A DNA stretch of 64,000 nucleotides from Thiohalomonas denitrificans (GTDB lineage Bacteria > Pseudomonadota > Gammaproteobacteria > Thiohalomonadales > Thiohalomonadaceae), in contig DYFR01000014.1 in NCBI GenBank assembly GCA_020725115.1, forward strand, positions 1-64,000, given 5' to 3'. Made by a program: the position numbers and the translations under genes. Every line of letters begins with the position of its first letter. Position 1 is the stretch's first letter. Below the pieces are notes generated by a model, which was not told the origin of the DNA, did not search any database, and saw nothing but the letters and a program-made list of their open reading frames with translations. Positions 3,361 through 7,936 of the stretch are shown one piece after another.

Positions 3361-3466
3361 AGAAAATCACCGGTGAAGGGGGGCTGGAGTCTCCGTCGCG
3401 CAGCCGCCTCCGACTGGCGCGTCGTTACCCGATGCGCGCATACTGCGGCGAAACACCTACGCCGCC

Positions 3467-3901
3467 ATGTTCCGACATCACGTCTCCCGCCAGCTGCCCT
3501 ATACCTGCGACCAGTTGTTCACGCTGGTGCTCGACATCGAACGTTACCCCGAATTTGTCCCCGGCTATCTCGCCGCCCGCATCCTGTCCCGCGAAGCGCG
3601 GGCGCTGGAAGTGGAGCAGAGTGCCGGCTTCGGGCCGCTGACCATCGCGTTTCGTTCCCGTGCGGAATTCAGCACGCCGACGCGCATTCATATCCAAGCC
3701 AGCGATGGCCCTTTCCGCCGTCTTGAAGTTACCTGGCAGTTCGAATCGGTACCGGGCGGTTGCCGTGTCAGCGCCGATACCTGTTATGAGTTGGGCGGGT
3801 TGCGGGCGCCGCTCCTGCGCGGCGGACTGGCGATGTTTGCGCCGCGCCTGCTTGATGCCTTTGCCCGCCGTGCAGCACGGCTGTATGGCGCGCATGATTA
3901 A
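3467..3901 (+). CDS. Coq10/RatA-type START-domain protein
   Basis: The 144-residue protein matches the SRPBCC ligand-binding family that includes RatA/PasT and Coq10. Visible family signatures are YPEFVPGY after the first helix, DGPFRRLEVTWQF in the central sheet and a C-terminal amphipathic helix with FARRAARLYG. Family members bind hydrophobic ligands; Coq10 proteins bind ubiquinone. The usual RatA neighbours (ratB, smpB) are absent here, so a quinone-binding role is as likely as an anti-ribosome association role. It is followed after 33 bases by the outer-membrane protein gene. Confidence 0.8.
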   Translation: MFRHHVSRQLPYTCDQLFTLVLDIERYPEFVPGYLAARILSREARALEVEQSAGFGPLTIAFRSRAEFSTPTRIHIQASDGPFRRLEVTWQFESVPGGCRVSADTCYELGGLRAPLLRGGLAMFAPRLLDAFARRAARLYGAHD

Positions 3902-4527: not shown

Positions 4528-4821
4528 TCAGGCCGCCACGAAATCTACCGGGCGTACGCCTTTCAAATTGAGGGTCTGCCGTGCTTGCCACAGGTCATGG
4601 CTGTCCTGCATGGCAAGCCAGCTTTCGGGAGAGCGGCCCAGCGCCTTGGACAGGCGCAAGGCCATTTCCGGGCTGATACCGCTCTTGCCGGTGATGATAC
4701 GGTTGAGGGTGGAGGGCGACACATCCAGATTGTCCGCCAAGGCGCGCACGCTGAGGCCGAAGGGCTCCAGGTAGGTGGCGTAAATAAACTCGCCAGGATG
4801 CGGGGGATTGTGCATGGCCAT
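4528..4821 (-). CDS. higA: HigA-type antitoxin (XRE family)
   Basis: The 97-residue protein begins with HPGEF and has the helix-turn-helix LSVRALADNLDVSPSTLNRI followed by SGISPEMALRLSKALG, the standard HigA pattern. HigA neutralises the HigB mRNA interferase and represses its own operon. The start overlaps the HigB stop by one base (TGATG at 4823-4819), so the two are translationally coupled. The antitoxin looks intact while its toxin does not. Confidence 0.9.
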   Translation of the reverse strand: MAMHNPPHPGEFIYATYLEPFGLSVRALADNLDVSPSTLNRIITGKSGISPEMALRLSKALGRSPESWLAMQDSHDLWQARQTLNLKGVRPVDFVAA

Positions 4822-5072
4822 CAGTGATAATCCTCATAATCCAGCACGTAAACGTTTCCTTCCCGAAACTCGAAAGTGACTCGCCAGTTGCCGCTGACCC
4901 AGATCGACCAGCGCCCCTTTTCCTTTCCCTTCAGGGGATGCAGACGATAGCCCGGGATATCCATGTCACCGATGCCGGTGGCGGTATCCAGGGCGGCCAA
5001 TTGCATGCGGAGCCGGGCGGCATGGTGCAAGTGTAGCGTGTTGCGCGATGCGCGATGCGCGATGCGCAACAA
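4821..5072 (-). pseudogene. higB: HigB-type toxin, N-terminus lost and replaced by a heptamer repeat
   Basis: From HHAARLRMQLAALDTA onward the protein follows RelE/HigB toxins: MDIPGYRLHPLKG, GNWRVTF and the C-terminal DYEDYH are intact. Normal HigB has about 20-25 residues before this point. Here that stretch is replaced by residues encoded by three GATGCGC heptamers (5047-5067 on plus) flanked by GTTGCGC and GCGCAAC. The only in-frame starts are TTG codons inside or beside the repeat (5072, 5069). No Shine-Dalgarno is seen, and the upstream radical SAM gene ends at 5090, leaving no room for the missing part. I infer a disabled toxin. Confidence 0.7.
5040..5070. repeat. Heptamer array in the 5' end of higB
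   Basis: GTTGCGC is followed by three exact GATGCGC units (5047-5053, 5054-5060, 5061-5067) and then AAC. The outer seven bases GTTGCGC and GCGCAAC are reverse complements. The 21-base core keeps the reading frame. It belongs to the short-tandem-repeat elements seen in many gaps of this window. Confidence 0.85.
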
Positions 5073-6157: not shown

Positions 6158-6265
6158 GAGGACTCGGGTGGCGGGGGCGACTACGCGGAATTATACCCCT
6201 TGCCCTTGAGCCGGGCCGCGCCAGTGGTTACATTCGTGCGCTGTCTTGCAGATAAGGAATGTGAC

Positions 6266-6616
6266 ATGGCCATGCCGGAAGAGCGCCGCACCGCCCCGCG
6301 CCTGCTGCGCGACGAGAAGGTGACAGTGAAAATCCTCGCCGCACCAACCCTGCCGGAGCTGGTCGGCAAGGTGGTGGAATGCTCCACGGTAGATGTTTCT
6401 GCCACCGGGCTGCGCATCCTGCTGGAAACCTCGGTGGCAACAGGCAGCCGGCTTGGTTTGGAGGTGGCCGTGCCGGAGGGTGATGAGCGTTATCTCCTCG
6501 GCGGCGAGGTGATGTGGTCACGGGAAACCGAGGCGGCAGGTACTTATCTCATCGGTGTACATCTGGCGGGAGAGGAGCCGCGGCATCTGGAGCAGTGGCG
6601 CAGCCGGTTCATTTGA
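6266..6616 (+). CDS. PilZ-domain protein
   Basis: The 116-residue protein carries both parts of the PilZ c-di-GMP site: the arginine-rich start ERRTAPR (about residues 5-11) and DVSATGLRI (about 48-56, the D/NxSxxG motif). It has no other domain. ATG 6266 is chosen because AAGGA lies 7 bases upstream; the open frame extends further but runs antisense to the radical SAM gene. Binding of c-di-GMP is expected from the motifs; the partner is unknown. The signal-peptidase-like gene follows after 31 bases. Confidence 0.88.
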   Translation: MAMPEERRTAPRLLRDEKVTVKILAAPTLPELVGKVVECSTVDVSATGLRILLETSVATGSRLGLEVAVPEGDERYLLGGEVMWSRETEAAGTYLIGVHLAGEEPRHLEQWRSRFI

Positions 6617-6647
6617 CCGCGACGTAACCGAACAGGAGGCGATGACG

Positions 6648-7538
6648 ATGGGTGGTGAACAACGGGTGGCGGCACAACACTGGTTTGCTGCTGCGCAGGA
6701 GCCGGGGCGGGTGTGCCCGCGCAACCCGTGGCTGGCCGTGGCGCTGTCAGTCTGTCCCGGCCTGGGCCAGCACTATGCCGGTCATATTGTGCGCGGCATT
6801 GCGGTGTATGTGGCGCTGATAGTGCTTTCGTGGCTGGCGGCCATTGCCTTCATGCATGTGGAAAGCAAGATCGGTATCGTGTTTCTTGCCGTACCCTTTG
6901 TCGCTACAGCCTGGATCGTTTACGACGCGTGGCATTGCGCGGCGCGGCAGGAGCGCAGTTATCGCTTGCGCTGGTTCAATCGCATCTGGATCTATGCAGC
7001 GGTGACGCTGTTTCTGATCATCACGGTCAATCCGCTGATGGACAAGATCATCGGCGGTCATGTGATGCGTGCGTTTTTCATGACCACCACGGCCATGCAG
7101 CCGGCGGTGCTCAACCATGATGTGTTGCTCATCAACAAATTGGCCTTTCCTGGCCGCGGCGATCTGGCCCTGATCGATTTCAGCGGCGGCAATCAGCCGG
7201 CGCAGTTGTCACGGGTGATGGAGGATCAGCTCATCCGCCGGGTGATCGCCCTGCCGGGTGACACCGTTGAAGTGCGCGAGGGCGAGGTGTGGCTCAATGG
7301 TGCGCGGCTGGATGAGGACTATGCCCGCCTGCCTGCGCCGGAGCGCAATTTTGGCCCGGCGGAAGTGCCGGCGGGACACTATTTCGTATTGAGTGATCAG
7401 CGTGCCGTCGGTATCGACAGCTGTGTGCTGGGCTTCATCGAGCGCGCCCGCATCGGCGGCAAGATCACCAAGGTGTTCTGGTCGTGGAATTTTGACGACG
7501 GGGCGATACGCTGGGAGCGCACGGCGCTGGGGCTGTAA
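6648..7538 (+). CDS. Signal-peptidase-I-like membrane protein lacking catalytic Ser and Lys
   Basis: This 296-residue protein starts with a membrane region (NPWLAVALSVCPGLGQHYAG and several hydrophobic helices up to about residue 130), then a S26 peptidase-like domain. The Box B position reads TTTAMQPAV where signal peptidases have SMxPTL, putting Ala149 in place of the nucleophile. The Box D position reads LIRRVIALPGDTVEV, putting Arg197 where the general-base lysine sits. The last box is VLSDQR instead of GDNR. The fold is expected to remain but not the protease activity. Start at ATG 6648 has AGGAGG 8 bases upstream; ATG 6642 is too close to it. Confidence 0.82.
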   Translation: MGGEQRVAAQHWFAAAQEPGRVCPRNPWLAVALSVCPGLGQHYAGHIVRGIAVYVALIVLSWLAAIAFMHVESKIGIVFLAVPFVATAWIVYDAWHCAARQERSYRLRWFNRIWIYAAVTLFLIITVNPLMDKIIGGHVMRAFFMTTTAMQPAVLNHDVLLINKLAFPGRGDLALIDFSGGNQPAQLSRVMEDQLIRRVIALPGDTVEVREGEVWLNGARLDEDYARLPAPERNFGPAEVPAGHYFVLSDQRAVGIDSCVLGFIERARIGGKITKVFWSWNFDDGAIRWERTALGL

Positions 7539-7597
7539 CTTGTTTCATGCCGCCGCCGGCCCCAAATGATGAGACTGGCCGCCAGCCCGGAGATACC

Positions 7598-7936
7598 ATG
7601 AGCTTTCCCGTCATCCACACCGCCATTCCCCTGCGCCGTTACCAGTACGGTGAATTTGTCGTTACCGTGCTGGGGGATATCGTCAGCCCCGACGCGGTGA
7701 ACTACCGCTACATCATCGCCGTGGCCCAGGAGGGCAATCCGCACCCCGGCCTGTATCTGTCCGCCGAGCGGGCGGTCGATGGCGGCTGCGATCTGCGCGT
7801 GTCCATGGCCGACGGTTCCCAGGTGCTGGAAACCTCGCCGGCCTTCTGCGACCTCGATCTGTTTGTGAAAGAGGCGCTGCAGGTCATCTCCACCATGCTC
7901 AGCCTGGACGATGAGATGCCGCATCGCCTGATGTAG
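7598..7936 (+). CDS. Small protein of unknown function
   Basis: I do not recognise this 112-residue protein. It is acidic, has no signal peptide or membrane helix, and shows alternating strand-like segments (FVVTVLGDIV, YRYIIAVAQ, GLYLSAER) before a C-terminal helix FVKEALQVISTML. ATG 7598 has a GGAG 5 bases upstream. It follows the signal-peptidase-like gene by 59 bases on the same strand and precedes the mnmG promoter. Confidence 0.65.
   Translation: MSFPVIHTAIPLRRYQYGEFVVTVLGDIVSPDAVNYRYIIAVAQEGNPHPGLYLSAERAVDGGCDLRVSMADGSQVLETSPAFCDLDLFVKEALQVISTMLSLDDEMPHRLM

Follow-up and report, generated by a model that had tools for sequence, protein, structure and literature searches.

Loss of both catalytic residues in a signal peptidase I homologue: a candidate membrane-anchored pseudopeptidase

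The gene described here lies at positions 6648–7538 (+) of a 64,000-nucleotide stretch of DNA, which we refer to as the window. Its translation is a single open frame of 296 residues, composed of an N-terminal membrane domain followed by a Peptidase_S26 domain. Given the AGGAGG ribosome-binding site recognised in the sequence at 6634–6639 (+), 8 nt 5′ of the ATG at 6648, this ATG is a well-placed predicted start. The membrane domain (6720–7064, +; codons 25–139) carries a PGLGQxYAG motif and three membrane helices predicted from a structure model and hydropathy. The C-terminal half matched Pfam PF10502 (Peptidase_S26; E = 3e-23, 82.9 bits against a cut-off of 22.9), and the protein also matched NCBIfam TIGR02227 (signal peptidase I; E = 8e-27, 94.2 bits against a cut-off of 47). 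Towards the end of the protein, alignments delimit a conserved C-terminal family signature, GGKITKVFWSWNFDD..IRWERTA (7452–7526, +; within residues 269–293). An AlphaFold2 model built on a 12-sequence alignment (mean pLDDT 74) placed helices at residues 47–70, 74–99 and 113–139, followed by a beta-rich domain. When this model was compared with the PDB using Foldseek, signal peptidase I (SPase I) structures ranked first by E-value (SpsB, 5e-9) and, among the structures listed, the target-normalised TM-score was highest for SipA (0.74–0.76), with query-normalised scores below 0.4, partly because the solved structures lack the membrane part. The model supports the predicted fold, not the fine geometry of an active site, and profile and fold together place the protein in peptidase family S26.

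The residues that define an SPase I enzyme are missing from it, as a sequence-only reading of this DNA had proposed. At the position of the catalytic Ser, which enzymes carry in box B (SMxPT), the window protein has Ala149 (GCC, 7092–7094, +) in AMQPA, within TTTAMQPAV. At the position of the general base Lys in box D it has Arg197 (CGC, 7236–7238, +), within LIRRVIALPGD; alignments and codons agree on both replacements. Box E, GDNRxxSxDSR in enzymes, is degenerate, as the same reading had noted: residues 249–259 (7392–7424, +) read SDQRAVGIDSC against GDNRxxSIDSR in orthologues, with the G, N, S and last R changed. A Ser-Lys pair at shifted positions, the alternative which that reading had raised against its own claim, was not seen in the alignments. 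The sole peptidase-domain Lys that is invariant in the 12-protein alignment, K164, is found in Ser/Lys enzymes too, and a Lys just before the RR motif of orthologues is not conserved (YKDGQLVRR vs YRDGQLVRR). A base-calling slip was ruled out as the source of these changes, since ten orthologue-invariant positions in box B and four in box E differ.

The window protein could in principle still be a peptidase that works through other residues, for example with Thr147 or Thr148 as the nucleophile, as TTTAMQP has hydroxyl side chains beside the lost Ser. We consider this highly improbable, however: no conserved Lys or His is positioned as a base, Gly255 replaces the box E Ser that orients the base, and SipA of Streptococcus pyogenes (PDB 4n31), an SPase-like pilus assembly factor with comparable changes, has no detectable peptidase activity (PMC4049620). 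From these motifs we infer that the window protein does not cleave.

A search for a separate active lepB, suggested in the sequence-only reading, found a canonical copy on another contig of the window genome, between lepA and rnc, with its Ser and Lys motifs intact (SMMPT and IKRVIGIPGD); the window gene is thus a second, divergent S26 gene. In genus g197, which holds the orthologues described below, a separate lepB was found in six of eight genomes (G230, G330, G385, G386, G387 and G389) and not in G388 or G390. We rejected a true lack of lepB in these two, which look like assembly gaps: the G388 contig ends ~45 bp past rnc, at the expected lepB site, and in G390 a 22-residue C-terminal S26 match adjoins rnc. 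This co-occurrence with canonical lepB would suit a window protein that is an accessory LepB subunit, pairing with LepB in the membrane and delivering or orienting particular pre-proteins without cutting them. Such a partnership seems improbable to us, as lepB lies on a different contig wherever both genes were placed, the two share no operon, and the S26 gene is missing from most relatives of the window genus.

Relatives of the window protein were few. A peptide-pattern scan of 84,980 species genomes, whose patterns were drawn from the window protein alone and so would miss more distant relatives, gave three related loci, one of them merely a contig-edge fragment. Profile searches of 369 genomes sampled from the class, covered twice with much the same sample, of 398 from the phylum and the order of the best match recovered full-length orthologues in only one other gammaproteobacterial genus, g197 of family f90, in six species. 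These comprise six distinct sequences (L013, L014, L017, L050, L051 and L052, of which L052 is truncated by the end of its contig). L016 and L049 duplicate L014 and L013, and boxes B and D are missing from the short pieces L015, L053 and L054. No relative was found among the viral contigs searched or in a further class of the phylum, a set without a positive control, and the plasmids searched held distant SPases and no closer relative.

The six orthologues are 51–58% identical to the window protein and share its end-to-end architecture, its C-terminal signature and, in all six, Arg instead of Lys at the base position (in QLVRR). L014 was modelled with a like arrangement (pLDDT 71), in which the family insertion formed a loop and a helix of low confidence. 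Unlike the window protein, however, all six keep the nucleophile Ser (in SSSMAPT) and an intact box E (GDNRxxSIDSR); most also have 21 additional residues ahead of box D, and they differ in gene neighbours. The Ala/Arg pair, whose conservation the sequence-only reading had proposed to check, is therefore not conserved: the orthologues are Ser/Arg, and Ala at the nucleophile position is private to the window sequence among the members found, carried by one draft genome of 91% completeness.

Amongst ~70 other S26 proteins compared, Lys was present wherever the motif was readable, and the seven Arg proteins (window and g197) formed a single clade with an SH-aLRT support of 99. The presence of Arg in all six orthologues and of Lys in other S26 proteins makes Lys-to-Arg an old family trait. 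In the six orthologues, Arg is encoded by AGG, CGA, AGA, AGG, AGA and AGG, and in the window by CGC; the use of four codons, with synonymous sites near saturation, suggests that Arg has been held by selection. The Lys proteins include six signal peptidases with a PGLGQxYxG domain (L025, L028 and L107–L110), which resemble the window protein in having a similar N-terminal membrane domain followed by S26, but they are 26–28% identical to it, retain an intact Ser/Lys pair, carry an extra NCxxC motif and are not sister to the Arg clade in a tree whose deep branches are weak.

In the Ser/Arg relatives, the nucleophile Ser, the Gly and Ser of box E and the DSR residues are conserved without exception, a pattern that would be unexpected for dead enzymes. 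It could be explained if these relatives were working Ser-Arg peptidases, with the window protein a dead descendant of that enzyme family, which we think distinctly unlikely. Arg is a poor general base, we know of no signal peptidase with a Ser-Arg catalytic pair, and the open-access literature that we searched yielded no Lys-to-Arg variant of signal peptidase or LexA. The phage 186 CI repressor, whose LexA-like domain belongs to the same superfamily and has Arg at the catalytic-base position, is described as lacking a canonical active site (PMC12984324), although it is a DNA-binding repressor of the LexA branch and not a membrane protein.

We compared the neighbourhood of the gene with those of its relatives. 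In the window, it is accompanied by a radical-SAM gene, pilZ, a short unknown gene and mnmG. Misbinning of the contig was rejected, because its mnmG is 93–94% identical to those of congeners G014, G016 and G017 and the surrounding gene order is conserved in two of these: G014 and G017 share the order coq10-like gene, membrane protein, radical-SAM gene, pilZ, short gene, mnmG. Congener G015 has pilZ, the short gene and mnmG in order, and G016 has no pilZ within the stretch read. The window-type S26 gene was absent from all four congeners searched, and in G014, G015 and G017 pilZ is followed directly by the short gene, with no S26 remnant found between them. These empty sites suggest that the window lineage gained the gene by insertion or that the others lost it cleanly. 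The roughly 270 bp that separate pilZ from the short gene in G014 (L093, about 3390–3630) contain no gene remnant but a short element bounded by imperfect inverted repeats, GGAAGGTCTGAATAAG ... TTTATTCAGGGCTTCC, which resembles a small MITE or a REP-type sequence. The window and g197 diverge by 43–49% in the S26 protein and by 34–37% in LepB, and members of g197 diverge from one another by 19–33% and 12–18%, respectively; these figures do not separate horizontal gain from vertical descent with losses.

In g197 the neighbours are different: a PQQ beta-propeller gene lies upstream of the S26 gene in divergent orientation, and lpxH lies on the other side in convergent orientation. PilZ is thus not a constant neighbour, and the idea of a c-di-GMP-linked membrane partner finds no support, with pilZ persisting without the S26 gene in three congeners. 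Amongst the loci compared, no conserved genomic neighbour pointed to a client. The PQQ beta-propeller gene was located at L013 3612–6078, L014 3543–5898, L050 2494–3780 and L052 1100–2248, and a multihaem cytochrome c gene adjoins it in L013 and L014.

We then considered the constraint acting on the gene. Of the 159 positions invariant amongst orthologues, the window protein keeps 119, including 55 of 67 in the membrane domain (residues 25–140), 9 of 12 around box D, 10 of 14 in box E and 9 of 19 in box B, the most eroded region. Conserved positions were lost more often in boxes B, D and E than in the rest of the protein (17/45 vs 23/114; P = 0.026, Fisher test, a single exploratory test). The Arg clade has its longest branch in the window sequence (0.91 vs 0.11–0.40 changes per site), and three-point arithmetic gives this branch a dN of ~0.26. 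Long branch, eroded boxes and absence from congeners are what would be seen if this species had acquired the gene, or alone had kept it, and the gene were drifting to a pseudogene, its catalytic losses being functionless early decay. We regard this as a serious possibility, albeit an unlikely one. In spite of the long branch, the frame contains no stop or frameshift and the ribosome-binding site is intact, whereas an unconstrained gene with 80–120 missense changes would be expected to hold 3–6 stops (probability of none about 0.04 to 0.003). Codon structure is kept (GC1/2/3 = 0.65/0.45/0.75), pairwise dN/dS against orthologues is 0.16–0.26, well below 1, with dS near saturation, and the membrane domain and C-terminal signature are well conserved. 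Loss in close relatives, which the sequence-only reading had taken as a sign of a decaying pseudogene, holds insofar as the gene is absent from them, but empty sites that hold no remnant fit a gain, or else a complete loss long ago, rather than ongoing decay. An open frame and ribosome-binding site that have persisted despite so many changes look like those of a maintained pseudopeptidase under relaxed constraint rather than of a wreck. We read the pattern as relaxed or shifted constraint on a maintained gene; from one genome, it could also be that of first-stage decay.

The explanation that we favour, with moderate confidence and on sequence grounds, is that the window protein is a membrane-anchored, peptide-binding, signal-peptidase-I-like pseudopeptidase, comparable in kind to SipA. 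The S26 fold would still expose its peptide-binding cleft on the periplasmic side of the inner membrane, where it may bind an exported protein or a signal-peptide-like segment and act as a chaperone, holdase or accessory factor, as SipA is proposed to do in pilus assembly. Catalysis would have been lost stepwise: the ancestor of the family would have exchanged Lys for Arg, and the window lineage would then have exchanged Ser for Ala and, along with it, the Gly and Ser of box E. The chaperone or decoy role that had been suggested is compatible with this mechanism. The earlier observation is confirmed, and its interpretation partly supported. Given the erosion of box B and the longest branch, however, the peptide-facing surface may no longer be used.

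SipA itself retains a peptide-binding cleft and is essential for pilus polymerisation (PMC4049620). Like the window protein, it has the S26 fold without a Ser-Lys pair and a small non-catalytic part, and the two box E changes of the window protein, Gly272 to Ser and Ser278 to Gly (E. coli numbering), fall at the same two positions that are replaced in SipA. It differs in being Gram-positive, in serving a sortase-built pilus, in having a single membrane helix and in carrying Asp/Gly where the window protein has Ala/Arg, with 25% identity over the aligned part; no pilus locus, sortase or pilin, surrounds the window gene. SpsA of Staphylococcus aureus, an inactive SPase homologue beside the active SpsB (PMC12445088), offers a parallel drawn by description and not by sequence: here too a second SPase I homologue lacks both conserved catalytic residues while the genome also encodes an active enzyme. 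SpsA is Gram-positive, and no multi-helix membrane domain is described for it. Inactive homologues have been described in Gram-positives; to these the window protein would add a Gram-negative candidate that carries a multi-helix membrane domain of its own. Its Ser/Arg relatives would stand one step earlier, with Ser kept and Lys replaced, and from these two states the steps by which catalysis was lost can be put to experimental test. They also raise the question of what a signal-peptidase fold does once cutting ends.

Several neighbouring genes have features of their own. The PilZ protein (6254–6616, +) keeps RTAPR (RxxxR) and DVSATG (DxSxxG) and looks able to bind c-di-GMP. The short gene between the S26 gene and mnmG (7547–7936, +) is conserved in three congeners at 62–78% identity and had no Pfam or PHROG match. 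A HigA-like helix-turn-helix gene and a HigB-like toxin gene (4528–5072, −) lie 1.5 kb from the S26 gene; the toxin matched PF05015 (E = 3e-16) from profile position 21 of 91 onwards, which may mean that HigB lacks its start. The pair had no match in the congener stretches read and thus looks like a second lineage-specific insertion.
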